A model generated the notes under the pieces. It saw only the letters and a program-made list of their open reading frames with translations, had not been told where the DNA came from and did no database searches. From Clytia hemisphaerica (lineage: Eukaryota; Cnidaria; Hydrozoa; Leptothecata; Clytiidae): a DNA stretch of 64,000 bases. The stretch is from the NCBI GenBank assembly GCA_902728285.1, contig CACVBU010000910.1, positions 1,558,080 to 1,622,079 of the forward strand. Reading direction: 5' to 3'. This document shows, piece by piece, positions 24,427 to 54,890 of this stretch. The position numbers were made by a program, and so were the translations under genes. Within the stretch, counting starts at the first letter, position 1. Every line of letters begins with the position of its first letter.

Positions 24427-24580
24427 CTAGCCGGTACCCGGCATCGTACGTAAGCTGTAGCAGGAAAGTGGCTTAAGTGTCCCTGTGACACTAGATAGAG
24501 AAAAAACAGCATTACTCTAAACACATTTGTGTCAGTCATTATGTAAATTTTACGACAAAAGATAATTAGCAGTAGAAATA
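24427..24580 (-). mobile_element. Helitron 3' end, interrupted by the recombinase-element array
   Basis: A plus-strand CTAGCCGGTACCCGGC start, preceded by A, is the reverse complement of the same Helitron 3' end as at 540. The inner hairpin is partly decayed. The matching 5' end (ATTAATATATAGA) is not found before the first recombinase unit starts at 24,581, so the unit may have inserted into, or truncated, this Helitron. Confidence 0.55.
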
Positions 24581-24952
24581 CCTTAATGTTGTTGATTTTA
24601 TACCATCTTGTTAGACAAAATCCCAAGTTATGTAACAACTAGCGATTGTTATAACAAAGGATTTTTATCACTCTTGAAAGGATTACTAACAAAGGCGCTA
24701 TTCTTTTTTCGGTTTTTAGGGATTTTTCTATAGAGAACGATTCCCAAATTGATACATTTAATGTTGCGCTGCGATGTACAGTGAAGGAACATCAATTAAG
24801 TCTCTTTTTTGTTCCTTATGGAACATTCTAAGAAACTCTACTCTTGAGAATTCCATTTTATTCCCTTTTGTTCTCTTTGCAGAGAATAAATCGTTTATTT
24901 GAATAGAAAAAATCGGGTCACAACAATGACCCTTTTTGTTCTTTTCTTGTGG

Positions 24953-25190
24953 ACTCAAAGATGTTCCATTATATGAAAGAACAATTTTAATAAACTGCAG
25001 GGAATTATTTGTTCTTTGATATAATGGAACAAATTTAATATACCGCGGGGAATTATTTATTCCTTCATTTAACGGAACAATTTCGATATACCGCGGGGAA
25101 TTATTTGTTCCTTTATATGAAGGAACAATTTCAATATACCGCGAAGAATAATTTGTTCCATTCATTGGAGGAATATTCTATTCCCTTGTG
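24953..25190. repeat. 48-bp iterons upstream of the U1 recombinase
   Basis: About four and a half copies with a period of 48 bp (GGAATTATTT at 25001, 25049, 25097). Each copy contains an imperfect palindrome of the type TTGTTCC..GGAACAA, and two copies contain CCGCGG. The period is a multiple of three, so the minus strand shows a long repetitive reading frame that is probably not a gene. Confidence 0.8.
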
Positions 25191-25382
25191 ATATGGGAAC
25201 AATATAGATGCTCATTTAATCATTCAAGCAAACGAAAAAAATGTTCTCTGATCACTAAGAACAGTAAAATCAGTTTTCAAGGGAACAATTAATCTTTGTC
25301 ATAATAGTGCTGATTATTGTTCACTTTCTCATAATTGATAAGAAGAATCTGAACCTGTCAAATGACCAAAGAAGGTCGTCAC

Positions 25383-25710
25383 ATTTATGATATATTATAA
25401 TATATTCATGATAATATGATAGATATAAATATAATATTATGATTATATTATCATATTATTGCAAACTATCATAAATATTATACTATATATTGATTTTAAT
25501 AGGTTATGATAAAACAATCATAATATTTTGACCATATTATTATTATAAGTTTATGATATCATTTAAAACAATGAATACATTATCATCTTATTCAAATCCT
25601 ATCATAAATATCATATATGATATAAAATAATATGATATGATGATATTATAAGACATTAAATATATTATCATTACCTTCAGATCGTAGATATTTTCATATC
25701 ATATATTTGA
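25383..25710. other. Very AT-rich tract in U1
   Basis: Dominated by ATGATA/TATCAT-type words arranged as many short inverted repeats, between the iterons and the recombinase promoter. It could act as an unwinding region or a matrix-attachment-like spacer; no function is shown by the sequence itself. Confidence 0.5.
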
Positions 25711-25996
25711 GTAAATTTGAACGATGAACATCTCAAAAAAGAATAAAAAATTAACAATTCCCATGGGAATATTTAGTCAACTGATAATTACATCTCAAGA
25801 AAAAGGACATAATATGAACAATACACATGAGACATGGACAATCGATGATAAGATTTGACTCGTTCATCGAAATATGAAACCCCCTTGCAAGTAACAATCC
25901 AATCACCTATCAATTTTCCCTAAGAAAACAAAGAACAATATGACATTCATGACAATAGGACCCCCTGTTTAGGATACGTTTACTGTTTTCAAACAG

Positions 25997-26004
25997 TATA
26001 AATG
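25997..26004 (+). promoter_or_regulatory. TATA box of the U1 recombinase gene
   Basis: TATAAATG lies 45 bases before the start codon and directly after a perfect small hairpin, ACTGTTTTCAAACAGT. The start context is CCAATATGG. The same arrangement occurs in U2. Confidence 0.5.
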
Positions 26005-26041
26005 ACACAGTTTGAACACTCACTGATCAAAGAAGGCCAAT

Positions 26042-28014
26042 ATGGCCCGCCGGAGGGTGCTCTTCGTCGACTGGCATTCTGTCAATGGATCAGCCAATGG
26101 AAAACGAAAGTTATCGTTCAATGAAAATGATAAAGGTAAATTTACGTGTCCAGCTAAATTATGCTTACATTCAGACTTTGAAAGCAAAAGAGGTTTAAGA
26201 AAACACATAGATAACAAGCACCCTTGGTATTACTATTTTGATGACCAGCCAGAAATTAAAAGGGAAGAAGTCGAACTTAACCAGCCTATTGTACAAAAGA
26301 AAGCCTCTACAAGTTCCAAACCTTACTATTCAATCGATGAAGGGATCGGAAAATCGTTTTATAGGTGGTTGACCACTACCTGCGGTGGAGGTAAAAATGA
26401 CAGAGAAGCTAAACAAGTCGCTAAACGAGCTTTGAAGTTTTTGATGAGCAGTACTGGGGATAACGAATCTCAAACACCCTTAACTTACGAACTGATTGAT
26501 TGTTGTTTAGGGTCTACAACAATAATATTGACATTTTTGACTGTTTTAGACGAACAATGGAAACTATCTTCTTCAGGGGCACTTAATTATGTTAAAGCTA
26601 TTTCTGATTTAATGGATTATAGAAAATCATTTGGAATCAATGATAATAAATTGAGATGTTTTACAATCACAGAAGTTTATTTGAGGAGAGCAAAGAAAAT
26701 CTGAGAAAGAAGAAACGCCTTGACGGCACGAGAAACTTTGACCTAGAAACGCTCATTGGTCGAGACAGCTGGGCCACTTTAGAAGAAATGGAGGGAGTCA
26801 TTCCTTATCATATCTTCAAATTCAAAGAAATCGTTAATAAGTGCAAAGTACAACAACCATTACCCAATAAACAAGAGCTTACATTCTGTACTCGTTTCAT
26901 CACAACCTTTTTATTTTTACGTGTAAAGTGCAGTAGACCAATGACATTTCAATACTTGACTCTAACAATGATCGAAAAAGCAAAGCAGGCTGATGGTTTC
27001 ATTGACCAGAGGGAGTTCAAAACGACAGGTAAATATCTTTTTGATACTCTCATCTTAACTGAAGAAGTATTTACTGTCTTGGACACATACACAGACTTTG
27101 TTAGACCTCTTATGAAACCAAGTTGTGACTATCTGTTAGTATCGACAACAGGCAATCAATATCAATCTTTAACAACTGCAATGACTTTAATTGTACATCA
27201 AGCCATAGGAAAGTATATCCATCCAACAAGATATCGACAAATAGTTGAAACAACAAGTGCGGATAGATTATCTCGATCCGAACAGGAGATAATATCAGAG
27301 GATCAAAAACATAGCTCTGATGTTGCAAAGGTTCACTACAAAAAGAAACAATCGAGAATAGTCGCCACGCAAGGTCGTCAATGCATGGAGAAAATGCTTG
27401 GTACTACACGAAAGGATCACCAAGAAGCATGTTCGGGCGTGCTGAGAGATTTAGCTGCCATGTCAAGAAATACAATTGAATCACAACCAATTCAAGACGC
27501 AGTTGCTAGTTCAGCTTCTTCAACCTCAACAAATAATCACATTCCAATGATAGTAGATTCAGACGATGACGCATTCGAACCAAGTAATATTGAGGCTCAG
27601 TGCACTGAAGTGAACAACATCATGCAACGTGTGCAATCAATGTGTTCGACTTCACCTCTCACAAATCAAAATCTAAACGAGTCAAGAGACGTACAAATGG
27701 AAGTCGTAAGGTCAACTGTATCATCTACACCAAAACGTCCTCAAAACTCTAAGAGTTACGACAAACGAAGAATAACTGAAAGTGTAGAGGTGAAAAAGGA
27801 AACTGCTATTAAAGAGACAAGAAAATCTTCTAGAAACATCAAATTTTCACAAGAGGAAGATGAGGAGCTTTTAAAAGGGATACAAAAACATGGTGAGAAG
27901 AACTGGGCAGCCATTATAAAAGACAAAACATTTGACTTTCATCCCTCAAGAACAAGAGACTCGTTGAGGGTACGAGCAGATTCAGCAAAATTTAAAAAGC
28001 TTTTGAAAATGTAA
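26042..28014 (+). pseudogene. Tyrosine recombinase, U1 copy, 1-nt frameshift
   Basis: Same gene as 33604-35577, but one G is missing in the run near 26,695 (GCAAAGAAAAT where U2 has GCAAAGGAAAAT). The frame is therefore split into an N-terminal part of 220 codons and a C-terminal part that contains all catalytic boxes. Apart from this, the protein is essentially identical to U2. The break lies between the zinc finger and the catalytic domain, so no full-length product is expected unless the missing base is an assembly error. Promoter and upstream iterons are intact. Confidence 0.8.
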
Positions 28015-28199
28015 ATTGACTATGAATTTTGAAGTGTTATTTTAACAGTTAATTAAATATTTGATGGAAATTTATAATAGGCCAGTGTCATTTAAGATAA
28101 TTATATTGTTCTGAAATTCAATTCTCTACTTGTATAGGTGCACTTAATACATCCCCACTCTTCATTTTCAAATCTTGAAATTTTGAATTTATTTCCTAA

Positions 28200-31010
28200 A
28201 AAGAACTACTCTAACTGTAGACTACTGGTAGCAAAAAGAAAGCCTGTCGATTTTAGCCTACAATTTATATGATAGCCAAGTAGCCAAAGGATTTTTGGAA
28301 GACGAAAGTTATTTCTATGAATGACGTAACTGAAAATGGAAAAGGACAGAATAAAATTGTAACTTTTTGACATGCGCATTCAATAAAAAGTAAGACATTG
28401 TCATTTTCAATTCTTTTTGATCAAAATGAACTACTTGAATGAAGACCACTGCTAGCACATAGATAGCCTTTCGATTTTAGTACGAACTTGCTTTAATAGC
28501 CCAATAGCCAATGAATTTTATGGCAATACATTGTTCTTGAATAAAAAAAGGAAATGGGAAGGAACTTTTACTTTGTGACATGCGCACTTGATATAAAGTG
28601 AGACTTTGTCAATTTTTGATACTTTTTAATGGAGACTACTGCTAGCACATAGATAGCCTTTCGATTTTAGTACAAACTTGCTTTAATAGCCCAATAGCCA
28701 ATGAATTTTATGGCAATACATCGTTTTTGAATAAGAAAAGGGAATGGGAAGGAATTTTAACTTTGTGACATGCGCACTTGATGTAAAGTGAGACTTTGTC
28801 AATTTTTGATACTTTTTAATGGAAATGAACTACTTGAATGGAGACTTCTGCTAGCACATAGATAGCCTTTCGATTTTAGTACAAACTTGCTTTGATAGCC
28901 CAATAGCCAATAGATTTATCCGAGTACAACGTTCATCAAACGACTTCACTGACAACGTAATAGAAAATAGGACGGAGAGAGGTCTTTCAAGATGACATCA
29001 TTGTCAATTAAAGTGGAATACAGAAAGAAGCTTTCAATCCGTGTCATGCGCATTAAAAACTTCAAAAGAATGAAATACATTTTTTGAATATGAAATTTTT
29101 TGAGCTACCGGGCTACCAAAGCAATTTCAACCAAATTTGATTGGCTACCAAGGGGCTGCCCATGGGCTACCATCAACTGTAGCCCATTCTATGAAATATT
29201 ATCAAAAATGACAAAGTCTTGTGATGTAGCTAATGCGCATGTCACAAATGGAAAGCTTTGCTCTATTCCCTTTAATTCTCAAATAATTTAGAAATCCCTT
29301 ACCAAAAAGTAGAACTCTGCCATTATTTGATTTTTTTAGATCGATGAACTATATCGAATGTAGGCCACTAGTAGAAAATAAATAGCCTGTCAAATTTCCT
29401 TTTAACTTGCTTTGATAGCCCAGTAGCCCATAAATTTATGGTACTTCCACACATTTTGAATGATATTGTTGACAATTTAATAAGGTATGGGAGAGAGATA
29501 AGAATTTCCAAATGACGTAATAAATCTTCAAATTTGTGACATGCGCATATCATACTTCAAATGACTGTTGTGGTCCAATTTCCTATCATATTGTCAGCGA
29601 CGTCATTAAAAACAGTACTACTTTAAATCAACTGGCTATTTGGCTATCAAAGCAATTTAAGCTAGAATCGACAGGCTATCTATTTGCTACCAGTAGTCTC
29701 CATTCAAGTAGTTCATTTTGGTTAAAAAGGATCGAAAATTGGCAAAGTCTAACTTTTTATTTAGTGCGCATGTCAAAAACTTTAGATTCTGTCTCATTTC
29801 ATATAACATTATCAGTGACGTCATTTAAAAAAAGTTGTATTATCACAAATCAACTGGCTACTTGGCTATCAAAGTCAGTTCAAACTAAAATTGAAAGGCT
29901 ATATAAGTCCTACCAGTGGTCTCCATTCTATGTAGTTTATTTCGGTAAAAAGAATCGAAAATTTGGCAAAGTCTCACTTTATATCAAGTGCGCATGTCAC
30001 AAAGTAAAAATTCCTTCCCATTCCCTTTTCTCATTCAAGAATGATGTATTGCCATAGAATTTGTTGGCTAATGGGCTATCAAAGCAAATTTGTACTGAAA
30101 TATGAAGGCTATCTATGTGCTAGCAGTGGTCTCCATTCAAATAGTTCATTTTGATTAAACATAGTCATTATAAAAACACTGGTCTGGAAGGCTTTTGTTT
30201 CTTGTACAAAAATCGATTCATTTTGCAAACTTTTAAAATTTGCAAAATTAAAAAATAGACCATTCCGTAGAGGAGATGTTGGTAACGTGATCCAAAAGTA
30301 TGCAAATCACAACTTGTGTTTTGTTTATAACAAAAGGAAATTGAACAAAAATCTAAATACCATACATTGCCAGACCGGGATTTTTTATAATGACTATGAT
30401 TAAAAAGTATCGAAAATTGACAAAGTCTCACTTTATATCAAGTGCGCCTGTCACAAAGTAAAAGTTCCTTCCCATTCCCTTTTCTCATTCAAAAACGTGT
30501 GTTGCCATGAAATTTATTGGCTAATGGGCTATCAAAGCAAGTTTGTACTAAAATCGAAAGTCTATCTATGTGCTAGCAGTGGTCTCCATTAAAGTAGTTT
30601 ATTTTGGTCAAAAGAATTGAAACATGATAAAGTCTCGATTTTCATTATGTAGTACAGTTAACGCTTTCTAATTCGATCTTCAAGGGGAATTGGATTTTCA
30701 TCGAATAAGGGAGCTTATCGAATAAGGGAGTGTCGTTCATGAGACTTTCTTGTTGACGGGACTTTAAATTTAATAGAATAACAGAGCCTATCGAATAGTA
30801 GAACGTCGAATTAGAGAGCGTCAACTGTATGTGAAAAACTTAAAGCTATGTTCCATTTCATTTTCATTTTTGGTGGTGTCATTCAAATAACTCTGTGCTA
30901 CCGAGAATTAACTGGCTTTTGGGCTACCAAAGCAATTGAAAGCTTAACTTGACAGGCTATTTATTTGCTACCAGTTGTCTACACATTGAAGGTAGTTCAT
31001 CAAAGAAGTA
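28200..31010. repeat. Inverted tandem arrays downstream of the U1 recombinase
   Basis: Units of roughly 180-230 bp contain GATAGCCCAATAGCCAATG, CTAGCACATAGATAGCC and TGACATGCGCA. They run forward at 28,200-29,080 and 29,350-29,560, and in reverse orientation at about 29,100-29,200 and 29,570-31,010. Forward and reverse arms therefore face each other around 29,560. Units differ from each other by 5-20%. Reading frames inside are repeat artefacts. Confidence 0.8.
30655..30827. mobile_element. 173-bp MITE with TA duplication inside U1
   Basis: TA at both sides; inverted ends CAGTTAACGCTTTCTAATTC and GAATTAGAGAGCGTCAACTG. The interior repeats CGAATAAGGGAG. The identical insertion exists at 38465-38637 in U2. 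Confidence 0.8.
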
Positions 31011-31738
31011 TACATTGCATTTTCAGATTTATTAAATAGATATGCTGGAATGTTTCAAAATGTCTTGGTTGTTAGTTCTGGCCATTGGTCGGTCTCCTTT
31101 TCTAAATCTCATAGGATATTCAAGCAAAATGTCCCATTATCCTTATTTATTGCAATGAATTTTATTGAATCATTAAATTGTACAACATCGTAAACCAATC
31201 AATCAATATTGATCAATGTCATAAATCAATAAAGCTATCAATATGATTTATACGCTTTTATTATAAGAAAATACTTTATAAGAATTTTTATGATCAAATT
31301 GGCCAAAATATTAAGAATATAGTAAAAATATCACCATCATGGAATTTAGCAACTGAACCTAAAAATGCCTTACAGTTGTTACCAATGATACACCAGTAAT
31401 GCTCAATAATCTCATGAAAATCCTATTTTATGCTTCAGGCATACATTACATGTTAAATATAGGTTAAATTTCGATCTTATCTTAATATAAATAAGGATAT
31501 TTCAGGATTTCCACCAAAAAGTCAAAGAAGAGTGTAAATTATAATAAAATGAATCATAAGTCAAAGCTCTAAAGAGTTAGATTTTGATATCATCTCAGAC
31601 ATATTATTTTTCGAAAGAAAATTGATAAAACAAAAAAACTTTAAAATTAAGCTTTCTGTTTTCAAATGATCAAGAGATAAATGATAACAATGAAGATGAG
31701 AGAGAAGGCACCTGAAGAAGGTTACATACAATAAATAA

Positions 31739-32089
31739 TCAAGAATTACTATCAGTGTCAGATAGACAAATGATGTCTGTCAGTTCTACGTTTGGTTTAA
31801 ACAACTCAACCATAGTCGCCATCTTTGCCGGAAGCACTTCTTCTACAACTTCATCCCCCTCAGCCTCTGTATCAGTCTCTTGTATTATGAAGACTTCTGA
31901 ATCATACTGGTTGAATCTCGAATGGCTTGAAAACAGCTTTGAAAATTCCAACGGCCTGTATTTATACTGTACTCCTTCCTTTGTTGATGTTTTGCATTTT
32001 TCATTATGGCTTGCTTTCTCTGTCAGAGAATATTTTCTTCCTTGGCGCTTTTGAAATATTCTACTCGCTTCGACATTCTTGAGAGACAT
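31739..32089 (-). CDS. Uncharacterised 116-residue protein at the right end of U1
   Basis: The start is the ATG at 32089; the frame is open a little further upstream but without another ATG. The N-terminal half is basic (FQKRQGRKYSLTEKASH). The C-terminal half is acidic (ETDTEAEGDEVVEEVL) and ends in a Ser/Asp-rich tail. No domain is recognised. It is transcribed towards the recombinase, converging on the inverted arrays. The U2 copy has a single nonsense change. Being part of a two-gene element it could be an accessory protein such as a DNA-binding or regulatory factor, but that is a guess from position and charge only. Confidence 0.45.
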   Translation of the reverse strand: MSLKNVEASRIFQKRQGRKYSLTEKASHNEKCKTSTKEGVQYKYRPLEFSKLFSSHSRFNQYDSEVFIIQETDTEAEGDEVVEEVLPAKMATMVELFKPNVELTDIICLSDTDSNS

Positions 32090-32514
32090 TGCGCTCGCGA
32101 ACAACTTCACTCAACGCGAAGTGAACACTATTTGATGATATGCCTTAATGTAGTTGATTTTATACCATCTTGTTAGACAAAATCCCAAGTTATGTAACAA
32201 CTAGCAATTGTTATAACAAAGGATTTTTATCACTCTTGAAAGGATTACTAACAAAGGCGCTATTCTTTTTTCGGTTTTTAGGGATTTTTCTATAGAGAAC
32301 GATTCCCAAATTGATACATTTAATGTTGCGCTGCGATGTACAGTGAAGGAACATCAATTAAGTCTCTTTTTTGTTCCTTATGGAACATTCTAAGAAACTC
32401 TACTCTTGAGAATTCCATTTTATTCCCTTTTGTTCTCTTTGCAGAGAATAAATCGTTTTGTTTGAATAGAAAAAATCGGGTCACAACAATGACCCTTTTT
32501 GTTCTTTTCTTGTG

Positions 32515-32752
32515 GACTCAAAGATGTTCCATTATATGAAAGAACAATTTTAATAAACTGCAGGGAATTATTTGTTCTTTGATATAATGGAACAAATTTA
32601 ATATACCGCGGGGAATTATTTATTCCTTCATTTAACGGAACAATTTCGATATACCGCGGGGAATTATTTGTTCCTTTATATGAAGGAACAATTTCAATAT
32701 ACCGCGAAGAATAATTTGTTCCATTCATTGGAGGAATATTCTATTCCCTTGT
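32515..32752. repeat. 48-bp iterons upstream of the U2 recombinase
   Basis: Essentially identical to 24,953-25,190: four or more 48-bp units with TTGTTCC..GGAACAA palindromes and CCGCGG. Confidence 0.8.
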
Positions 32753-32944
32753 GATATGGGAACAATATAGATGCTCATTTAATCATTCAAGCAAACGAAA
32801 AAAATGTTCTCTGATCACTAAGAACAGTAAAATCAGTTTTCAAGGGAACAATTAATCTTTGTCATAATAGTGCTGATTATTGTTCACTTTCTCATAATTG
32901 ATAAGAAGAATCTGAACCTGTCAAATGACCAAAGAAGGTCGTCA

Positions 32945-33270
32945 CATTTATGATATATTATAATATATTCATGATAATATGATAGATATAAATATAATAT
33001 TATGATTATATTATCATATTATTGCAAACTATCATAAATATTATACTATATATTGATTTTAATAGGTTATGATAAAACAATCATAATATTTTGACCATAT
33101 TATTATTATAAGTTTATGATATCATTTAAAACAATGAATACATTATCATCTTATTCAAATCCTATCATAAATATCATATATGATATAAAATAATATGATA
33201 TGATGATATTATAAGACATTAAATATATTATCATTACCTTCAGATCGTAGATATTTTCATATATATATTT
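32945..33270. other. Very AT-rich tract in U2
   Basis: Counterpart of 25,383-25,710, with a 2-4 bp deletion near its right end (ATATATATTTG instead of ATATCATATATTTG). Confidence 0.5.
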
Positions 33271-33558
33271 GAGTAAATTTGAACGATGAACATCTCAAAA
33301 AAGAATAAAAAATTAACAATTCCCATGGGAATATTTAGTCAACTGATAATTACATCTCAAGAAAAAGGACATAATATGAACAATACACATGAGACATGGA
33401 CAATCGATGATAAGATTTGACTCGTTCATCGAAATATGAAACCCCCTTGCAAGTAACAATCCAATCACCTATCAATTTTCCCTAAGAAAACAAAGAACAA
33501 TATGACATTCATGACAATAGGACCCCCTGTTTAGGATATGTTTACTGTTTTCAAACAG

Positions 33559-33566
33559 TATAAATG
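33559..33566 (+). promoter_or_regulatory. TATA box of the U2 recombinase gene
   Basis: TATAAATG 45 bases before the start codon, preceded by the same ACTGTTTTCAAACAGT hairpin as in U1. Confidence 0.5.
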
Positions 33567-33603
33567 ACACAGTTTGAACACTCACTGATCAAAGAAGGCC
33601 AAT

Positions 33604-35577
33604 ATGGCCCGCCGGAGGGTGCTCTTCGTCGACTGGCATTCTGTCAATGGATCAGCCAATGGAAAACGAAAGTTATCGTTCAATGAAAATGATAAAGGTA
33701 AATTTACGTGTCCAGCTAAATTATGCTTACATTCAGACTTTGAAAGCAAAAGAGGTTTAAGAAAACACATAGATAACAAGCACCCTTGGTATTACTATTT
33801 TGATGACCAGCCAGAAATTAAAAGGGAAGAAGTCGAACTTAACCAGCCTATTGTCCAAAAGAAAGCCTCTACAAGTTCCAAACCTTACTATTCAATCGAT
33901 GAAGGGATCGGAAAATCGTTTTATAGGTGGTTGACCACTACCTGCGGTGGAGGTAAAAATGACAGAGAAGCTAAACAAGTCGCTAAACGAGCTTTGAAGT
34001 TTTTGATGAGCAGTACTGGGGATAACGAATCTCAAACACCCTTAACTTACGAACTGATTGATTGTTGTTTAGGGTCTACAACAATAATATTGACATTTTT
34101 GACTGTTTTAGACGAACAATGGAAACTATCTTCTTCAGGGGCACTTAATTATGTTAAAGCTATTTCTGATTTAATGGATTATAGAAAATCATTTGGAATC
34201 AATGATAATAAATTGAGATGTTTTACAATCACAGAAGTTTATTTGAGGAGAGCAAAGGAAAATCTGAGAAAGAAGAAACGCCTTGACGGCACGAGAAACT
34301 TTGACCTAGAAACGCTCATTGGTCGAGACAGCTGGGCCACTTTAGAAGAAATGGAGGGAGTCATTCCTTATCATATCTTCAAATTCAAAGAAATCGTTAA
34401 TAAGTGCAAAGTACAACAACCATTACCCAATAAACAAGAGCTTACATTCTGTACTCGTTTCATCACAACCTTTTTATTTTTACGTGTAAAGTGCAGTAGA
34501 CCAATGACATTTCAATACTTGACTCTAACAATGATCGAAAAAGCAAAGCAGGCTGATGGTTTCATTGACCAGAGGGAGTTCAAAACGACAGGTAAATATC
34601 TTTTTGATACTCTCATCTTAACTGAAGAAGTATTTACTGTCTTGGACACATACACAGACTTTGTTAGACCTCTTATGAAACCAAGTTGTGACTATCTGTT
34701 AGTATCGACAACAGGCAATCAATATCAATCTTTAACAACTGCAATGACTTTAATTGTACATCAAGCCATAGGAAAGTATATCCATCCAACAAGATATCGA
34801 CAAATAGTTGAAACAACAAGTGCGGATAGATTATCTCGATCCGAACAGGAGATAATATCAGAGGATCAAAAACATAGCTCTGATGTTGCAAAGGTTCACT
34901 ACAAAAAGAAACAATCGAGAATAGTCGCCACGCAAGGTCGTCAATGCATGGAGAAAATGCTTGGTACTACACGAAAGGATCACCAAGAAGCATGTTCAGG
35001 CGTGCTGAGAGATTTAGCTGCCATGTCAAGAAATACAATTGAATCACAACCAATTCAAGACGCAGTTGCTAGTTCAGCTTCTTCAACCTCAACAAATAAT
35101 CACATTCCAATGATAGTAGATTCAGACGATGACGCATTCGAACCAAGTAATATTGAGGCTCAGTGCACTGAAGTGAACAACATCATGCAACGTGTGCAAT
35201 CAATGTGTTCGACTTCACCTCTCACAAATCAAAATCTAAACGAGTCAAGAGACGTACAAATGGAAGTCGTAAGGTCAACTGTATCATCTACACCAAAACG
35301 TCCTCAAAACTCTAAGAGTTACGACAAACGAAGAATAACTGAAAGTGTAGAGGTGAAAAAGGAAACTGCTATTAAAGAGACAAGAAAATCTTCTAGAAAC
35401 ATCAAATTTTCACAAGAGGAAGATGAGGAGCTTTTAAAAGGGATACAAAAACATGGTGAGAAGAACTGGGCAGCCATTATAAAAGACAAAACATTTGACT
35501 TTCATCCCTCAAGAACAAGAGACTCGTTGAGGGTACGAGCAGATTCAGCAAAATTTAAAAAGCTTTTGAAAATGTAA
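33604..35577 (+). CDS. Tyrosine recombinase with C2H2 finger and Myb/SANT-like domain, intact
   Basis: 657 codons in one exon. Residues 34-60 form a C2H2 finger (C36, C41, H55, H60). About 90-270 is an alpha-helical region, probably the core-binding domain. About 280-440 is the catalytic domain of a tyrosine recombinase. It has Arg I near R294 (FLFLRVKCSRP), a lysine candidate K327 (REFKT), HxxR at H394-R397 (HPTR), H424 and the nucleophile Y433 (KHSSDVAKVHY, H to Y spacing 9 as in XerD-type enzymes). About 455-595 is a Ser/Asn-rich acidic linker with a basic patch. Residues 598-650 are a Myb/SANT-like domain of telobox flavour (SQEEDEELLKGI, then NWAAIIKD, then RTRDSLRVRA). This order suggests DNA cutting and joining guided by two DNA-binding modules. 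The closest known idea is a Crypton-type element, but Cryptons usually carry GCR1_C, not Myb, so the family is uncertain. Confidence 0.85.
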   Translation: MARRRVLFVDWHSVNGSANGKRKLSFNENDKGKFTCPAKLCLHSDFESKRGLRKHIDNKHPWYYYFDDQPEIKREEVELNQPIVQKKASTSSKPYYSIDEGIGKSFYRWLTTTCGGGKNDREAKQVAKRALKFLMSSTGDNESQTPLTYELIDCCLGSTTIILTFLTVLDEQWKLSSSGALNYVKAISDLMDYRKSFGINDNKLRCFTITEVYLRRAKENLRKKKRLDGTRNFDLETLIGRDSWATLEEMEGVIPYHIFKFKEIVNKCKVQQPLPNKQELTFCTRFITTFLFLRVKCSRPMTFQYLTLTMIEKAKQADGFIDQREFKTTGKYLFDTLILTEEVFTVLDTYTDFVRPLMKPSCDYLLVSTTGNQYQSLTTAMTLIVHQAIGKYIHPTRYRQIVETTSADRLSRSEQEIISEDQKHSSDVAKVHYKKKQSRIVATQGRQCMEKMLGTTRKDHQEACSGVLRDLAAMSRNTIESQPIQDAVASSASSTSTNNHIPMIVDSDDDAFEPSNIEAQCTEVNNIMQRVQSMCSTSPLTNQNLNESRDVQMEVVRSTVSSTPKRPQNSKSYDKRRITESVEVKKETAIKETRKSSRNIKFSQEEDEELLKGIQKHGEKNWAAIIKDKTFDFHPSRTRDSLRVRADSAKFKKLLKM

Positions 35578-35761
35578 ATTGACTATGAATTTTGAAGTGT
35601 TATTTTAACAGTTAATTAAATATTTGATGGAAATTTATAATAGGCCAGTGTCATTTAAGATAATTATATTGTTCTGAAATTCAATTCTCTACTTGTATAG
35701 GTGCACTTAATACATCCCCACTCTTCATTTTCAAATCTTGAAATTTTGAATTTATTTCCTA

Positions 35762-38700: not shown

Positions 38701-38830
38701 CTCTGTGCTACCGAGAATTAACTGGCTTTTGGGCTACCAAAGCAATTGAAAGCTTAACTTGACAGGCTATTTATTTGCTACCAGTTGTCTACACATTGAA
38801 GGTAGTTCATCAAAGAAGTATACATTGCAT
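35762..38830. repeat. Inverted tandem arrays downstream of the U2 recombinase
   Basis: Same organisation as in U1: forward units with GATAGCCCAATAGCC on the left, reverse units on the right, turning point near 37,120. The right arm has one additional unit (about 37,520-37,740), the main length difference between U1 and U2. Confidence 0.8.
38465..38637. mobile_element. 173-bp MITE with TA duplication inside U2
   Basis: Orthologous insertion to 30655-30827: same position, same termini, same TA flanks, one or two substitutions. Confidence 0.8.
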
Positions 38831-39548
38831 TTTCAGATTTATTAAATAGATATGCTGGAATGTTTCAAAATGTCTTGGTTGTTAGTTCTGGCCATTGGTC
38901 GGTCTCCTTTTCTAAATCTCATAGGATATTCAAGCAAAATGTCCCATTATCCTTATTTATTGCAATGAATTTTATTGAATCATTAAATTGTACAACATCG
39001 TAAACCAATCAATCAATATTGATCAATGTCTTAAATCAATAAAGCTATCAATATGATTTATACGCTTTTATTATAAGAAAATACTTTATAAGAATTTTTA
39101 TGATCAAATTGGCCAAAATATTAAGAATATAGTAAAAATATCACCATCATGGAATTTAGCAACTGAACCTAAAAATGCCTTACAGTTGTTACCAATGATA
39201 CACCAGTAATGCTCAATAATCTCATGAAAATCCTATTTTATGCTTCAGGCATACATTACATGTTAAATATAGGTTAAATTTCGATCTTATCTTAATATAA
39301 ATAAGGATATTTCAGGATTTCCACCAAAAAGTCAAAGAAGAGTGTAAATTATAATAAAATGAATCATAAGTCAAAACTCTAAAGAGTTAGATTTTGATAT
39401 CATCTCAGACATATTATTTTTCGAAAGAAAATTGATAAAACAAAAAAACTTTAAAATTAAGCTTTCTGTTTTCAAATGATCAAGAGATAAATGATAACAA
39501 TGAAGATGAGAGAAAAGGCACCTGAAGAAGGTTACATACAATAAATAA

Positions 39549-39899
39549 TCAAGAATTACTATCAGTGTCAGATAGACAAATGATGTCTGTCAGTTCTACG
39601 TTTGGTTTAAACAACTCAACCATAGTCGCCATCTTTGCCGGAAGCACTTCTTCTGCAACTTCATCCCCCTCAGCCTCTGTATCAGTCTCTTGTATTATGA
39701 AGACTTCTGAATCATACTGGTTGAATCTCGAATGGCTTGAAAACAGCTTTGAAAATTCCAACGGCCTGTATTTATACTGTACTCATTCCTTTGTTGATGT
39801 TTTACATTTTTCATTATGGCTTGCTTTCTCTGTCAGAGAATATTTTCTTCCTTGGCGCTTTTGAAATATTCTACTCGCTTCGACATTCTTGAGAGACAT
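39549..39899 (-). pseudogene. Right-end ORF of U2, interrupted by a stop codon
   Basis: Counterpart of 31739-32089. The codon GGA in the STKEGVQYK stretch has become TGA (plus-strand change near 39,784), so the frame from the original ATG stops after about 40 residues. The rest remains open and includes the acidic tail. Confidence 0.6.
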
Positions 39900-40560
39900 T
39901 GCGCTCGCGAACAACTTCACTCAACGCGAAGTGAACACTATTTGATGATATGCCTTACTGTAGTTAATTTCTGGTCTGTTCCTGTATTTAAGGAACTCGC
40001 AAGGAACCTTTATCTGAAGAACTCTTTGATCCCTAAGGATCTCTTTGTTCTGTGTTGTTTTTCATAAAAGAATAAACTGTTCAATAAGGAATGGTTTAGA
40101 CTCCAATCTCAAAATTGTGTTTCAATTGTTCCTCCGTTCCTTTATAGGATGAATTTTTTGGTCTTTTCGTGTTGACAGATAATTTGTTCTCTTACAAAAG
40201 AATAAGATGTATACTTTCGCTAAGGAGCAAATTTGTTCTTTCTTCAATTTTATAACAAGGAACAATTTGTACACAAATGTATTTTTAATAATAGAATATT
40301 GAGTTCCTTATTAACTTTCTATTGCGGGAACGAAATAATGACTAATGTCAAGTTTTTATATTCCCTAAACGTTTGATTTTCCTCTCCCTATTGGAGAACA
40401 AGTTTGCTAACGGTGGGAATATATTGGTCGTTTAGCTTACGGGGGTTAATTGAACAATTCTATTCTTTAATTCGAACAAATAAAAAGTAAAATGAAACCC
40501 CCTTGTAAAGATTTGACAAGAAAAAACATAAAAGGCTCTTCTCAAATCAGGTCATTCATA

Positions 40561-42733
40561 ATGCGTCGCCCAAGGCGACTCCAGGTCAACTGGAAGAGCT
40601 TAGTGGGAGCTGCACATGGTAAAAGAACGCTAAAACTCCGACCAAACCAGCGGGACCTTTACACGTGTCCTATAAAGCTATGTTTACATGGTGACTTCAA
40701 AAGTTGCAGAGGGTTGAGAAAGCATATCAACACTAAACATCCTTGGTACTATTACTTTGACGAGCAGCCTGAAGTTAAACGTGAGGACATGACTGACTTT
40801 CCTGTTGCACCAAAGAGAGCATCTACTGCCGGTAAGCCGTCTTTTTCATTGGATGAAGGAATTGGAAGAGACTTTTTAACTTGGCTTGGAACATCTTGTG
40901 GAGGTGGAAAAAACAATAAGAGGCTAGACAGATTGGCAAACGAGCTATGAAATATTTTATGCATGCCATGGGTAACAATGAAAATGACATTGACCTAACT
41001 AACGAATTTGTTGACTGTTGTTTGTCATCTGCTTCAATTTTCATATCGTTTCTAAAAGTGATAGAAGAAGAATGGAAAGTTGGTCCCTCGGGTGCTGTAA
41101 ACTACGTAAAGTGTATTACAGATTTCATTGATTTTCGAAAAGCAAATGGAGTTTCTGACAATACTCTTCGTTGCTTCACAGTTGTGGAAGTTTATCTCAG
41201 GCGAGCAAATGAAAACCTTCGAAAGAAAAAGAACTTAGACTGTAATCGAAACCTCGACTTGGAAACCCTTATCGCCAGAAACAGCTGGGCAACGTTGGAG
41301 GAAATGGAAGTGGTCATACCTTCCCACATGAAACAGTTCAAAAAGATAATTGAAAAGTGTTCTGAAAGCCACGAAGCAAGATTTCTAACGAAAGGTGAAT
41401 TGGTCTTCTGTATTCGATTCATCACAACTTTGCTTTTCCTCCGAGTTAAATGCTCAAGACCTATGACGTACCAGTTTCTCACGGTTGAAATGGTTAACAA
41501 AGCAAGAAATAATGGTGGATTTGTCGATCAAAGAGAGTTCAAAACAGCATCAAGGTATGATTATGGTTCTAAAGAATTTGTATTAGATTAAGACAAAGTC
41601 TACTTTTTCTGCTTGATATCCTAATTTTAAGAAACGATGATTTTTGATCTAATAAATGATACCATACATTTTATATCACTTACTGTATCTTTAAATCAAA
41701 GTTTAATTCTCATTTAAATCATATCTATCATATGATAATTATTATTTTGTTATGATATTTAAACTGTTTTATTAATAGTATAATATAATAACAATGCATG
41801 TTTATTGTTTTAAGGTATATCTTCGACACTTTGATATTATCAGACGATACGATAGAGATTATTGATTTGTACTTAGAGTACATCCGACCTCGTCTCAATC
41901 CACAATGCGACTTCCTTCTACTCTCAACAAATGGAACTCAATTTCAATCCTTGACTTCAGCTATGACGATCCTCGTTCATGAAGCCATTGGCAAGCACAT
42001 CAACCCAACTCGTTATAGGCAAATAGTCGAAACGGAAAGCAGCGAAAGGCTTAACTTGGAAGAGCAACATTATATCACCGAAGATCAAAAGCACAGCTCT
42101 ACTGTAGCTAAAATACACTACAAGAAGACTCAATCGAGGATCGTTGCAGTAGAGGGACGTAAATGTATGGAAAAGATGACAAAGGACGCAAGGTCTGACG
42201 GCAACAAAAACCTTGTTGAAATGTTTAATAATATATCTTGTTCTTTCGATAACGACGTATTGAGTCATAGTCGACGCATAATAGAAGGTATGAAACCTAA
42301 CGCTCAAAATTCGATTTCGAGTGCTTCTTGCTCATCAAGCCATATGGAAGTTGATACCGATCCATACCAACCAGTGAGTGAATCACTAAACGAATCGACA
42401 GATATGGTCATCACAGAAACTTTTCCTACTAATAACACTCCAGCCGTGGCTGATGTACAGGAAGTCAGCATCTTAAATATACCAAATGACAATATTGTTA
42501 TCAAAAAGGAGGCTGCTCGACAACAAACTAACAGAAAACAACCTAAAAATGTGAAATTCACTAGTGCAGAAGATCATTGTTTAAAGCAGGGCATCGAAAA
42601 ATACGGTCGTAAATCATGGGCTATAATTTTGAAAGACCCTAACTTAAAGTTTCATGAAACTAGAACTAGAGATTCTTTGAGGGTTAGAGCTGATAGTGCT
42701 TGCTTTAGAAAGCTTTTTAATGATAATAAATAA
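40561..42733 (+). pseudogene. Tyrosine recombinase, U3 copy, with 1-nt frameshift and probable intron
   Basis: The start ATG 40561 matches the U1/U2 start by alignment of the N-termini (MRRPRRLQVNW); an in-frame upstream ATG at 40492 also exists. Domain order is the same: C2H2 finger, helical region, catalytic domain, linker, Myb/SANT-like domain. The catalytic boxes are conserved (LFLRVKCSRP, HINPTR, KHSSTVAKIHY). One base is missing near 40,917 in an AATAA/GAGG context, which shifts the frame. A stretch 41555-41814 starts GTATGA and ends TTTTAAG; its removal joins the frame as SRYIFDTL, matching GKYLFDTL in U2, so it is most simply an intron of 260 bp. I judge the copy homologous throughout, roughly 60% similar by eye. 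It is either broken by one base or affected by a sequencing error. Confidence 0.7.
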
Positions 42734-42857
42734 TTGTAAATATTATATCAAATGTGATAAAATATATTATGATATTTCATTCATTTCTATTCAATTTTAC
42801 TTTTATCTTGAGCAGCTTTCTAAATAATCTTGTTTCAATTTTTAAGATAACTGAAAA

Positions 42858-43220
42858 ATGTCAAAAAATAAAATCAACAATTACACGGGACCTAAAAGAC
42901 TTTCTTACGAATTCAAATTGATGTCATCTTCTGAAGAATCTGAGGAGTTTGATTTTGAGGCTTTCAATTCTGGTCAACCTCCAAAGAGAACAAAGAAACA
43001 AACTAAACCAACTTTGAAGCGCTCCAAGAGGGAAGGCATGTGCATGCTATCTGGAGATGAGAGCAAATCTGAATCTTCCCAAACAGAACAATTTCAAGAA
43101 AAGCTGAGAGTTGAAAGTCCTAAAAATAGCAAAATTAAAAAGAAAGAGGAAAGCAAAAACTTGATCAGTATCAAAGATGATAAAATAATAGACACATTTA
43201 TCAAAAATTTCAAGGCATGA
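42858..43220 (+). CDS. Uncharacterised 120-residue charged protein downstream of the U3 recombinase
   Basis: The ORF starts at ATG 42858, 125 bases after the recombinase stop and on the same strand. It has a Ser/Glu-rich acidic stretch (SSSEESEEFDFEAF), then a basic block resembling a nuclear localisation signal (PPKRTKKQTKPTLKRSKR), then a Lys/Glu-rich helix. No domain is recognised. It does not align by eye with the right-end ORF of U1/U2, although both are small, mixed-charge and Ser-rich. It may be spliced or polycistronic with the recombinase, or a chance frame; the charged composition favours a real protein. Confidence 0.45.
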   Translation: MSKNKINNYTGPKRLSYEFKLMSSSEESEEFDFEAFNSGQPPKRTKKQTKPTLKRSKREGMCMLSGDESKSESSQTEQFQEKLRVESPKNSKIKKKEESKNLISIKDDKIIDTFIKNFKA

Positions 43221-43599
43221 TATGATGAGAATTCTTTGTCGAGTTTATCTATATGCCTTTGCATTTGAGAAATTTGGGTTTGTATTGTATTGATACCTAA
43301 CAACTAAATATTTATATTCAAAAATATGTTGTAGAGAAAATTTACTTAGTTCATTAGCTTGTGGAATATATATATAATACCAATTACGATAAGAAGCTTA
43401 TCAATTTTAAGAAATGTGAATGTCAATTTTATTCAAGTCTAGGTTTCTACTAATTAATATCAAGATTAAAAATGTGGGATATCAACATTCCTGTTACAGG
43501 TTTTAGTCAATGTGTTACATCTTGATACACTTTGATACTACCTAATACACCTTGTTACAGGTTTTCATATGAAGTTCGAAAATAGTCTTGTTACAATCG

Positions 43600-46110
43600 A
43601 AGATAAGATGATGATATTTGATGACTCAGCAAATATTTCTTATTAAAATCAGGCAATTCTTATTACAGCTTTGTACCCCTTTTTCATTCTTCTACACCTT
43701 ATTACACATCTGAGATAAGATGATGATTTTTGATGACTCAGCAAAAATTTCTTATTACAAATCAAGCAATTCTCATTACATCTTTGTACCCCTTCTTCAT
43801 TCTTCTACACCTTATTACACATCTGAGATAAGATGACGATTTTTGATGACTCAGCAAAAATTTCTTATTACAAATCAGGCAATTCTTATTACAGCTTTGT
43901 ACCCCTTCTTCATTCTTCTACACCTTATTACAGATCTGAGATAAGATGATGATTTTTGATGACTCAGCAAAAATTTCTTATTACAAATCAGGCAATTCTT
44001 ATTACAGCTTTGTACCCCTTTTTCATTCTTCTACACCTTATTACAGATCTGAGATAAGATGATGATTTTTGATGACTCAGCAAAAATTTCTTATTACAAA
44101 TCAGGCAATTCTTATTACAGCTTTGTACCCCTTCTTCATTCTTCTACACCTTATTACAGATCTGAGATAAGATGATGATTTTTGATGACTCAGCAAATAT
44201 TTCTTATTACAAATCAGGCAATTCTTATTACAGCTTTGTACCCCTTCTTCATTCTTCTACACCTTATTACAGATCGAAGATAAGATGATGATTTTTGATG
44301 ACTCAGCAAATATTTCTTATTACAAATCAGGCAATTCTTATTACAGCTTTGTACCCCTTCTTCATTCTTCTACACCTTATTACACATCTGAGATAAGATG
44401 ACGATTTTTGATGACTCAGCAAAAATTTCTTATTACAAATCAGGCAATTCTTATTACAGCTTTGTACCCCTTCTTCATTCTTCTACACCTTATTACACAT
44501 CTGAGATAAGATGACGATTTTTGATGACTCAGCAAAAATTTCTTATTACAAATCAGGCAATTCTTATTACAGCTTTGTACCCCTTCTTCATTTTTCTACA
44601 CCTTATTACAGATCTGAGATAAGATGATGATTTTTGATGACTCAGCAAATATTTCTTATTACAAATCAGGCAATTCTTATTACAGCTTTGTACCCCTTCT
44701 TCATTCTTCTACACCTTATTACACATCTGAGATAAGATGATGATTTTTGATGACTCAGCAAAAATTTCTTATTACAAATCAGGCAATTCTTATTACAGCT
44801 TTGTACCCCTTCTTCATTCTTCTACACCTTATTACACATCTGAGATAAGATGACAATTTTTGATGACTCAGCAAAAATTTCTTATTACAAATCAGGCAAT
44901 GTTTATTACAGCTTAGTACCCCTTTTTCATTCTTCTACACCTTATTACACATCTGAGATAAGATGATGATTTTTGATGACTCAGCAAAAATTTCTTATTA
45001 CAAATCAGGCAATTCTTATTACAGCTTTGTACCCCTTTTTCATTCTTCTACACCTTATTACACATCTGAGATAAGATGATGATTTTTGATGACTCAGCAA
45101 AAATTTCTTATTACAAATCAGGCAATGTTTATTACAGCTTAGTACCCCTTTTTCATTCTTCTACACCTTATTACACATCTGAGATAAGATGACGATTTTT
45201 GATGACTCAGCAAAAATTTCTTATTACAAATCAGGCGATTCTTATTACAGCTTTGTACCCCTTTTTCATTCTTCTACACCTTATTACAGATCGAAGATAA
45301 GATGACGATTTTTGATGACTCAACAAAAATTTCTTATTACAAATCAGGCAATGTTTATTACAGCTTAGTACCCCTTTTTCATTCTTCTACACCTTATTAC
45401 ACATCTGAGATAAGATGACGATTTTTGATGACTCAGCAAAAATTTCTTATTACAAATCAGGCAATTCTTATTACAGCTTTGTACCCCTTCTTCATTCTTC
45501 TACACCTTATTACAGATCTGAGATAAGATGATGATTTTTGATGACTCAGCAAAAATTTCTTTTTACAAATCAGGCAATGTTTATTACAGCTTAGTACCCC
45601 TTTTTCATTCTTCTACACCTTATTACACATCTGAGATAAGATGACGATTTTTGATGACTCAGCAAAAATTTCTTATTACAAATCAGGCGATTCTTATTAC
45701 AGCTTTGTACCCCTTCTTCATTCTTCTACACCTTATTACAGATCTGAGATAAGATGATGATTTTTGATGACTCAGCAAAAATTTCTTATTACAAATCAGG
45801 CGATTCTTATTACAGCTTAGTACCCCTTTTTCATTCTTCTACACCTTATTACACATCTGAGATAAGATGACGATTTTTGATGACTCAGCAAAATTTTCTT
45901 ATTACAAATCAGGCAATTTTTATTACAGCTTTGTACCTCTTTTTCATTCTTCTACACCTTATTACACATCTGAGATAAGATGACGATTTTTGATGACTCA
46001 GCAAAAATTTCTTATTACAAATCAGGCGATTCTTATTACAGCTTTGTACCCCTTTTTCATTCTTCTACACCTTATTACAGATCGAAGATAAGATGATGAT
46101 TTTTGATGAT
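43600..46110 (+). repeat. Satellite array A: 113-bp units, forward arm
   Basis: 23 copies of the TCA within TGACTCAGCA span exactly 22 intervals of 113 bp (first at 43626, last at 46111). Each unit has three CTTATTACA words, a TTTGTACCCCTT segment, a CTTCTACACC segment and TGATGACTCAGCA. Units differ by a few substitutions. A more degenerate lead-in with TGTTACA words begins near 43,490. Confidence 0.95.
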
Positions 46111-48716
46111 TCAGCATTCGAAAGATTTCAACAATAGTTGTAATAAGCTGTAGCAGGGTGATTTAAATGTCAAAACTTGTAGTAAAAATGCCTCCGCATG
46201 TAATAAGAAATTTTGCTGATTCAGCATTCGAAAGATTTCAAAAATAGTTGTAATAAGCTGTAGAAGGGTGATTAAAATGTTAAAACTTGTAGTAAAAGTG
46301 CCTCCACATGTAATAAGAAATTATGCTGATTCAGCATTCGAAAGATTTCTAAAATAGTTGTAATAAGCCGTAGAAGGGTGATTAAAATGTCAAAACTTGT
46401 AGTAAAAATGCTTCCATATGTAATAAGAAATTTTGCTGATTCAGCATTCGAAAGATTTCAAGAATACTTGTAATAAGCTGTAGAAGGGTGATTAAAATGT
46501 CAAAACTTGTAGTAAAAATGCTTCCATATGTAATAAGAAATTTTGCTGATTCAGCATTCGAAAGATTTCAAGAATACTTGTAATAAGCTGTAGAAGGGTG
46601 ATTAAAATGTTAAAAGTTGTAGTAAAAGTGCCTCCACATGTAATAAGAAATTATGCTGATTCAGCATTCGAAAGATTTCTAAAATAGTTGTAATAAGCCG
46701 TAAAAGGGTGATTAAAATGTCAAAACTTGTAATAAAATTGCCTCCACATGTAATAAGAAATTATGCTGATTCTGCATTCAGAAGATTTCTAAAATAGTTG
46801 TAATAAGCCGTAGAAGGGTGATTAAAATGTCAAAACTTGTAGTAAAAATGCTTCCATATGTAATAAGAAATTTTGCTGATTCAGCATTCGAAAGATTTCA
46901 AGAATACTTGTAATAAGCTGTAGAAGGGTGATTAAAATGTCAAAACTTGTAGTAAAAATGCTTCCATATGTAATAAGAAATTTTGCTGATTCAGCATTCG
47001 AAAGATTTCAAGAATACTTGTAATAAGCTGTAGAAGGGTGATTAAAATGTCAAAACTTGTAGTAAAAGTGCCTCCACATGTAATAAGAAATTATTCTGAT
47101 TCAGCATTCGAAAGATTTCAAAAATAGTTGTAATAAGCTGTAGAAGGGTGATTAAAACGTCAAAACTTGTAGTAAAAATGTCTCCGCATGTAATAAGAAA
47201 TTATGCTCTAACTCGGCATTCGAAAGATATCGAATGTCCATAACATTAATGCAACATTAGAATTGTAATAAGCCGTAGAAGGGTGATTAAAATGTTAAAA
47301 CTTGTAATAAAATTGCCTCCACATGTAATAAGAAATTTTGCTGATTCAGCATTCGAAAGATTTCAAAAATAGTTGTAATAAGCCGTAAAAGGGTGATTAA
47401 AATGTCAAAACTTGTAATAAAATTGCCTCCACATGTAATAAGAAATTTTGCTGATTCAGCATTCGAAAGATTTCTAAAATAGTTGTAATAAGCTGTAGAA
47501 GGGTGATTTAAATGTCAAAACTTGTAATAAAATTGCCTCCACATGTAATAAGAAATTATGCTCATTCAGCATTCGAAAGATTTCAAAGATAGTTGTAAAA
47601 ATGAAGTCTTTTTAACGTCCGTCTAACGTCCATAACATTAATGCAACATTAGACTTGTAATAAGCCGTAGAAGGGTGATTAAAACGTCAAAACTTGTAGT
47701 AAAAATGTCTCCGCATGTAATAAGAAATTATGCTAACTCGGCATTCGAAAGATATCGAATGTCCATAACATTAATGCAACATTAGAATTGTAATAAGCCG
47801 TAGAAGGGTGATTAAAATGTTAAAACTTGTAATAAAATTGCCTCCACATGTAATAAGAAATTTTGCTGATTCAGCATTCGAAAGATTTCTAAAATAGTTG
47901 TAATAAGCTGTAGAAGGGTGATTTAAATGTCAAAACTTGTAATAAAATTGCCTCCACATGTAATAAGAAATTATGCTGACTCGGCATTCGAAAGATATCG
48001 AATGTCCATAACATTAATGCAACATTAGAATTGTAATAAGCCGTAGAAGGGTGATTAAAATGTTAAAACTTGTAATAAAATTGCCTCCACATGTAATAAG
48101 AAATTTTGCTGATTCAGCATTCGAAAGATTTCTAAAATAGTTGTAATAAGCTGTAGAAGGGTGATTTAAATGTCAAAACTTGTAATAAAATTGCCTCCAC
48201 ATGTAATAAGAAATTATGCTCATTCAGCATTCGAAAGATTTCAAAAATAGTTGTAATAAGCTGTAGAAGGGTGATTAAAATGTCAAAACTTGTAGTAAAA
48301 ATGCCTCTGCATGTAATAAGAAATTATGCTGACACGGCATTCGAAAGATATCGAATTTCCATAACATTAATGCAACATTAGAATTGTAATAAGCCGTAGA
48401 AGGGTGATTAAAATGTTAAAACTTGTAATAAAATTGCCTCCACATGTAATAAGAAATTTTGCTGATTCAGCATTCGAAAGATTTCTAAAATAGTTGTAAT
48501 AAGCTGTAGAAGGGTGGTTTAAATGTCAAAACTTGTAATAAAATTGCCTCCACATGTAATAAGAAATTATGCTCATTCAGCATTCGAAAGATTTCAAAAA
48601 TAGTTGTAATAAGCCGTAGAAGGGTGATTAAAATGTCAAAACTTGTAGTAAAAATGTCTCCGCATGTAATAAGAAATTTTGCTGATTCAGCATTCGAAAG
48701 ATTTCAAAGATAGTTA
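46111..48716 (-). repeat. Satellite array B: 110-bp units, inverted relative of array A
   Basis: About 23 units of 110 bp with TGCTGATTCAGCATTCG, TGTAATAAG words (three per unit), AGAAGGGTGATTAAAATG and GCCTCCACATGTAATAAG. Read as reverse complement, the order matches array A: TGA-TCAGCA, TTTCTTATTACA, AGGCA, a GTTTTGAC-like segment, CTTCTACAGCTTATTACA. The two arrays are therefore one diverged satellite family in opposite orientation. Some units carry an extra ~30 bp including AACATTAATGCAACATTAG. Confidence 0.9.
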
Positions 48717-48797
48717 AAATTTCTAACAAAAATAGATACCTCTTGCGTTTAATTGATTTGTGTGCTAATCGCGCAGGGAATAGAAAACAATCAAATG

Positions 48798-49137
48798 GCT
48801 TATTGGAACTAATTTTCGCGGGAACTAATTTTCGCGGTCGAAAAAAAATTTCCGAAAAATTGCATTTCGCGGGTTTTAATTTTCGCGGTTTTTTCCATTC
48901 AGGAATTTTCGCGGGTTTTAATTTTCGCGGTTTTGCCTTTTTTTGGACAAATTTCTTTCATTTTCCTAGGGATTTTCCAAATTTTTCGATAAAATTGGAA
49001 AAAATTGTACTTCGCGGGAATTAATTTTCGCGGTTTTCGACTCTCAAAATTTTTCGCGGGTTCAAATTTTCGCGATTTTGACGAAAAACCGCGAAAAACG
49101 CTAAAATTAAAACCCGCGAAAATTAGTTCCAATAAGG
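48798..49137. mobile_element. MITE with GGAACTAATTTTCGCGG repeats (340 bp)
   Basis: Inverted ends CTTATTGGAACTAATTTTCG and the complement, with TA on the right side; the left TA has mutated. The interior repeats TTCGCGGGTTTTAATTTTCG-like segments. Structural relative of the element at 22,777. Confidence 0.7.
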
Positions 49138-49418
49138 TAAATGATAGTTTCCCAACGAATTTGAAGGTCCTAAATGTGATTTGTTATTTCAATCAGAAAT
49201 AGATAACTTTTCATCGGAGGATTAAGACGAGTGAGATGGTTATTTAGATTTATATTAAAGGGACATAACAGTACTTGCGAAATTTTTGACCTCTTTTATT
49301 TCATAATTCAGCCAGACTATTTACTTAATTGTTTGCTATTTGAGAGCGCGTCAACACACAGGCTTCTACCAGTACAAATCTTTATTAACATTTTCATCTA
49401 ATAACTAATTAAAAGATA

Positions 49419-54863: not shown

Positions 54864-54890
54864 GGTGACATTGAGTCGAATCCGGGGCCG
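54864..54890 (+). other. 2A-like ribosome-skipping motif
   Basis: Encodes GDIESNPGP, a full match to the D-x-E-x-N-P-G-P signature of 2A peptides, preceded by a Leu-rich stretch (KLTLLLLG) as in known LINE 2A sequences. Skipping would release the N-terminal leader from the endonuclease/RT. The extra G just upstream takes leader and motif out of frame in this copy. Confidence 0.75.

Follow-up and report, generated by a model that had tools for sequence, protein, structure and literature searches.

The 64-kb stretch of Clytia hemisphaerica DNA analysed here (the window) contains three complete elements, U1, U2 and U3, which adjoin head to tail in the same orientation with zero bases between them (Table 1). 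The U1/U2 junction is GATGATATG|CCTTAATGTAGTT and the U2/U3 junction is GATGATATG|CCTTACTGTAGTT, in agreement with a sequence-only reading of this DNA that had described a spacer-free contact between the first two units and a third unit starting at the same boundary. The outer left junction (24580/24581) reads TA|CCTTA, and the inner junctions read ATG|CCTTA. Counting from the junction, 16 of the first 18 bases of U2 and U3 are equal, after which 2–3 of 10 agree in each of the four following decades, until strong blastn similarity resumes at the gene; elsewhere in the window, the first 18 bases of U2 find their best match at 15/18, in the internal repeats of U1 and U2, and then at 14/18. The end of U3, and with it of the array, had been placed at 48720. 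The U3 right terminus is found at 12 further genomic places, over 37 to 82 bases, and this recurrence sets the real end at 48797, 77 bp farther. The window also holds a broken LINE (54858-58482) with endonuclease and reverse-transcriptase matches, whose first frame opens with GGGDIESNPGP, in our view resembling a 2A peptide; a weak HEPN_DZIP3 match was recorded besides.

Table 1 Features of the element array and the adjoining MITE (positions in the window)
Feature	Position	Strand	Remarks
Target TA left of the array	24579..24580	+	precedes 19/19 distinct matched non-tandem left ends; C11 (L018) is an unreadable exception
U1, complete element	24581..32142	+	gene frameshifted near 26700
U1 gene, first frame	26042..26704	+	N-terminus, weak zinc-finger likeness
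U1 gene, second frame	26656..28014	+
U1 internal repeats, ~200 bp, two opposed arrays	28179..30986	+
U2, complete element	32143..39952	+
CTTA core, U1/U2 junction	32144..32147	+
U2 open frame, 657 aa	33604..35577	+	weak zinc-finger-like N-terminus, putative tyrosine-recombinase boxes, C-terminal Myb/telobox domain
U2 internal repeats, ~200 bp, two opposed arrays	35742..38796	+
U3, complete element, second family	39953..48797	+	left and right ends each defined
CTTA core, U2/U3 junction	39954..39957	+
U3 gene, first part	40492..41591	+	two frames, overlap 40947-40950
Likely GT-AG intron of the U3 gene, absent in U2	41555..41814	+	inferred from sequence and aligned protein pieces
U3 gene, last part	41798..42733	+	recombinase-like boxes, Myb domain; listed frame starts inside the intron
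U3 satellite array, 113 bp x 22	43587..46116	+
U3 satellite array, ~110-bp units	46101..48715	+	related motifs reversed in orientation
MITE carrying the array at its terminus	48798..49137	+	inverted ends (C/G)CTTATTGGAACTAATTTTCGCGG; then TA 49138-49139
CTTA core, U3/MITE junction	48799..48802	+	G before it

The frame of the gene is broken once in U1 and intact in U2. The U2 and U3 proteins are 56% identical in their N-terminal, 60% in their middle and 42% in their C-terminal parts. Zinc-finger matches at the N-terminus are weak and lie under their cut-offs; a Myb_DNA-binding match at residues 601-642 (Pfam, E 1.3e-6) passes its cut-off, and this C-terminal Myb domain is closest to that of TRF2. 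Three boxes read by eye, SRPMT, HPTRYR and KHSS..HY, are conserved between U2 and U3, with NPTRYR in U3, where the H of H-x-x-R is replaced by N. Profile searches of the protein, Pfam, NCBIfam and PHROGs included, did not recognize a tyrosine recombinase; hhalign against lambda-type integrases, in which both profiles were thin, gave nothing, and an AlphaFold model (mean pLDDT 39.4) is confident in the Myb part only. Judging from the eye-read motifs and the behaviour of the ends, U1–U3 appear to encode a tyrosine recombinase. Six scanned element ORFs gave zero Pfam matches to reverse transcriptase, DDE transposase or Rep/helicase, and U1–U3 hold no ORF of at least 180 aa apart from the gene frames. 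Two other element classes were rejected on this basis: a DIRS/Ngaro retrotransposon, as there is no reverse transcriptase match in the six ORFs and no further long ORF, and a Helitron, as no Rep/helicase gene was found in them. Relatives sought in viral_contigs and GTDB genomes gave none that was confirmed. On the minus strand of U1, near its right end, lies a 123-aa frame (31739-32110) without a Pfam match above cut-off. The U2 gene (33604-35577) is 100% identical to that of a copy on another contig (C321 copy A, L009) across 1,974 bases, whereas the first kb of the two elements agrees at ~92.5%, a contrast that suggests recombination or gene conversion between copies.

After the gene, every element carries two opposed repeat arrays. 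The repeats of U1 (28423-30606) and U2 (35986-38416) contain CATT.AAGTAGTT.ATTT, a motif that matches the element left end at 16/19 positions; in a post-hoc test this likeness was equalled by 9 of 3,556 control queries drawn from elsewhere in the window and by 1 of 645 from U2. These repeats may be binding sites. The U3 satellites match the U3 left end at 12/19 at best. Throughout the two opposed U3 arrays (43587-48715), CTTATTAC or its complement occurs about two to three times per unit, with 58 and 44 exact counts in U3. Around the junctions, no inverted arm sites beyond chance were found.

We searched the host assembly (G000; 417 Mb, 951 contigs) for further copies. A query of the initial 3,001 bases of U1 found at least 117 matches (of 183 first-look candidates, the best 40 were scored); among the matches listed, 24, the window's two counted, start within the first two query bases and are 89-100% identical, and four more do so with 73-74% identity. 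The left part of U3 has five other copies at 99%, plus many remoter relatives. U3 had been taken for a diverged relative of the other two units; it is not a lone, decayed one, its family being separate and young. Both families are multicopy and recent and are found apart from each other, and partial and truncated copies exist alongside complete ones. In the fetched loci we matched 26 distinct left ends: TA precedes 19 of them, and ..ATG, the right end of another element, precedes the other 7. The 19 TA-preceded solo left ends (TA|CCTTA) span both families; as a background, TA precedes 11 of the 152 CCTTA sites in the window. Two left ends with diverged motifs (L030 on C553 and L035 on C296) also adjoin the right end of an element, and one left junction (L018, on C11) has an N at its first base and ..TCTT, without TA, before it. 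Tandem joints were found on C628, C321, C817, C41, C561, C421, C191, C553, C296, C473, C897 and C352. Other copies share both boundaries, and both families also occur solo and in other arrays, so that U1, U2 and U3 are not one fixed block; the earlier proposal of site-specific tandem integration survives on both counts. On C321, C561, C360, C456, C374, C11 and C736, several copies have a contig end no more than tens of kb away. Given the TRF-like Myb domain a subtelomeric bias is conceivable, yet repeats also break assemblies.

To the right of the elements, a recurrent neighbour emerged. With the final 400 bases of U2 as query, 33 matches were obtained, of which 30 extend to the terminus (those on C748, C41 and C403 fall short of it); with the final 82 bases of U3 there were 13, and every one extends to it. 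Of these 43 right flanks, 42 were inspected, all but C430:1265647. Classed by eye, 27 are MITE-like termini, 13 are like the left ends of related elements and 2 (L043 on C412 and L048 on C691) are neither; most MITE flanks and several of the element-like ones were read over 60 bp. Because the C321 array is duplicated, it contributes two joints to the 13 and two MITE flanks to the 27 that do not count as independent arrays. The MITE-like termini start with CTTAAGGG.., with CTTATTGG.. or with a variant of these, and AATTTTCGCG or a close match comes next. For the element-like flanks, a related gene is known nearby at C897, at one C352 joint and at C628, C321, C817 and C553. A fixed pattern classed 19 of 25 right flanks as MITE-like, missing L052, which is MITE-like by eye; as background, the pattern fits 3 of the window's 152 CCTTA sites and 3 of its 11 TACCTTA sites, and across 20 fetched loci it fits 5 of 53 TACCTTA sites. 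At C412:336243-342580, two right ends face outwards, 6.3 kb apart, one adjoining a MITE-like terminus and the other a different sequence.

We call these neighbours MITEs because they are short and numerous, have inverted ends and lie inside TA, with no transposase linked to them; whole MITEs, with both ends, are present in the window, on C308 and on C321. The window's MITE (~340 bp) has 39 other full-length copies that are 97-99% identical, among the best 40 of 1,053 first-look candidates, window included. In all 39 the match starts at query position 2, and in 35 it extends to query position 342 or 343, through the far-end TA. These listed copies set the boundary of the MITE independently, and the family boundary therefore coincides with the right end of U3. 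In all cases seen, it is the right end of the element that faces the MITE. The target is usually a MITE terminus, a point missing from the earlier reading, and this targeting of MITE tips is the new part of the present analysis.

Alignment of the boundaries, by which the core was to be defined, gave 4 bp, CTTA, at both ends. On the right, exact CTTA is present in 26 of 29 flanks of the U1/U2 family and in 13/13 of the U3 family; the U1/U2-family variants are CTTG (C11), CTCA (C412) and CTTC (C691), and a C296 joint beyond the 13-flank list has A, then CTTG. The base before CTTA is C in 29/29 right flanks of the U1/U2 family. In the U3 family it is G in 12 of 13 right flanks and T in one (G in 10 of 11 among those fetched), and C in the left junctions read. 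This G on the right against C on the left would place the exchange to the right of that base, within CTTA. By inspection, the element termini are not inverted copies of each other.

An empty site lies on C321, where one host flank occurs thrice: beside element D, beside element B and directly beside a MITE, which it meets at TA|CCTTA. The last 100 bases of the flank are identical in all three settings (100/100). At B it is identical to the empty site across 300 and 1,000 bases; at D the ungapped agreement is 264/300 and 450/1000, and blastn gives 96%. The MITE at the empty site and the one behind element C are identical at 339 of 340 positions, and the filled and empty sites differ by the inserted pair D–C. 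Of what the sequence-only reading had proposed to look for, solo copies and one empty site were found, the latter precise and on another contig. Also on C321 (931140-970000), a block of ~18 kb, made up of host flank and two elements, occurs in duplicate with 99% identity; the duplicate blocks adjoin two different MITEs, each joint falling exactly at the core.

These observations bear on the order in which element and MITE arrived. MITEs are abundant, as the 1,053 first-look candidates for one family (best 40 scored) attest, and might have inserted beside the right ends of resident elements. We consider this very unlikely, as the far left flank has the TA expected of the MITE in 19/19 distinct matched cases and the C321 empty site consists of flank and MITE without the element. 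We likewise give very little credence to a composite terminal-inverted-repeat transposon that is bounded by the left CCTTA end and the outer end of the MITE and moves with the recombinase gene as cargo. These two ends are each flanked by TA and each start with CCTTA, as such a transposon would have it; however, the right ends are constant while the adjoining MITEs vary within each element family, the window's MITE family is present at many places, and at the empty site the MITE stays put. Repeated site-specific integration next to an existing copy, by comparison, is supported by the shared boundaries, the solo copies, the other arrays and the C321 empty site.

U1 and U2 show 19 differences in 7,558 aligned bases (99.75% identical), in addition to indels: a 225-bp repeat unit and 25 bp, both extra in U2, and some of 1 bp. 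Identity at this level could fall within heterozygosity, as if haplotypes of one element had been laid in tandem during assembly, but the two differ by a whole repeat unit and joints on element ends recur at other loci, where they link different families; such an artefact is quite improbable. The first kb of U1 and U2 agrees at 99.6%, where 20 other copies reach 94.8% at best, and the last 910 bases at 99.45%, where 8 others reach 97.6% at best. By these comparisons, U1 and U2 form a sister pair in non-coding DNA within the set of copies examined. Being mutually closest, they fit re-integration of an element's own circle, unequal crossover and fresh integration alike. A crossover origin had been allowed for the near-identical pair, with U3 as the argument for integration; the first remains compatible with the pair, which is ambiguous on its own, and the second holds and is strengthened by the other loci. 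Tandem duplication, by unequal crossover or replication slippage, with integration confined to the U2/U3 contact, would make each of U1 and U2 the other's nearest non-coding relative, as found (99.6% versus ≤94.8%; 99.45% versus ≤97.6%). It would also have to hit the element ends exactly, where shared sequence is short, and the same joint is present at other loci, also between different families. We regard this origin of the pair as possible but, on balance, doubtful.

The boundaries, the core, the MITE-like and tandem right flanks and the one empty site are directly observed, and we infer the enzyme class, a circular form and the order of events. Crypton-like integration, in which the CTTA of a circular copy joins the CTTA at a MITE tip and the left end also serves as a target, so that arrays build up, is very probably what formed this locus. 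The CTTA in a circular element copy would recombine with that at the MITE tip (TA|CCTTA...), and the element would enter between the TA of the MITE and the MITE terminal repeat, its right end facing the MITE. The inserted left end (CCTTA.TG.AGTT.ATTT), which is in part like a MITE tip and stands beside TA, would become a target itself. The next element would enter at the left end of the first, and repetition would yield a head-to-tail array whose units become younger from the MITE outwards. Because the left end adjoins TA, as the MITE tip does, new elements are expected to enter at the left, and its partial resemblance to the MITE terminus would explain the arrays. Consistent with this, the array in the window has the MITE at its right edge, with U3 as the adjacent unit, and a TA at its left edge. 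A consensus built from 27 MITE tips was compared with one built from 13 element left ends, a separately chosen set and not the 13 tandem-type right flanks: the two agree at 15 of 24 positions, including CCTTA, G at position 8 and ATTT at 15-18 (10 of 19 past CCTTA). When 14 bases were tested, the likeness was equalled by 2 of the window's 149 unrelated CCTTA sites, and we judge it to be modest. The circle-type junction is known only in the form of tandem joints.

In their ends and coding content, the elements would work like a Crypton: CTTA stands at both ends, there are no terminal inverted repeats, an empty site exists and neither a reverse transcriptase nor a DDE transposase was found in the elements. 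Cryptons, according to the available parts of one account (Kojima and Jurka 2011; PMC3212892), likewise have a recombinase-like gene without a reverse transcriptase or DDE transposase, and neither terminal inverted nor long direct repeats; those originally described have a 4- or 6-bp direct repeat at their ends, and a circle-type integration has been proposed. For animal Cryptons the same parts report that the C-terminal domain is absent and that no terminal repeats were found. The U1–U3 elements differ from CryptonA and CryptonI, which are animal groups, by their C-terminal Myb domain and by CTTA at both ends, and so would depart from the animal groups as described there. Those parts of PMC3212892 mention for Cryptons neither large opposed satellite arrays nor integration at MITE termini nor arrays in head-to-tail order. 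In the open-access literature we found no report of tandem Cryptons, of a Crypton with a Myb domain or of insertion into MITE ends, which is weak evidence of absence.

The integration model provides a recombinase transposon from an animal-like genome with a defined target, a core of 4 bp, an empty site and a way for head-to-tail arrays to grow. A broader proposal, to which we assign somewhat less than an even chance, is that these elements, as recombinase transposons of an animal, have come to use the terminal inverted repeats of unrelated MITEs for attachment and mimic them with their own end, the tips forming a genome-wide recombination network. If this is true, perhaps a thousand or more MITE tips would be available, elements would stack on them and recombination from site to site would move host DNA. 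A recombinase with many ready-made genomic sites would be a natural source of segmental duplications.

The yeast 2-micron circle with FLP, named in PMC3212892, also has a recombinase gene. It carries inverted repeats, like the opposed repeats that lie here beside the recombinase-like gene, but is a free plasmid, and the likeness is architectural only. The bacterial island SGI1, in the available part of its description (PMC2297512), likewise piles up in tandem at its attachment site, although that site is in the bacterial chromosome and the sites here are transposon ends. A bacterial element with a DEDD transposase and a guide RNA, so far as its available description goes, also targets the terminal inverted repeat of another transposon, with an enzyme of a different class. 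In their choice of target, the U1–U3 elements are similar to bacterial IS4321 and IS5075, as these are portrayed in the excerpts available, and would represent among eukaryotes what insertion sequences residing in the terminal repeats of other transposons are among bacteria.
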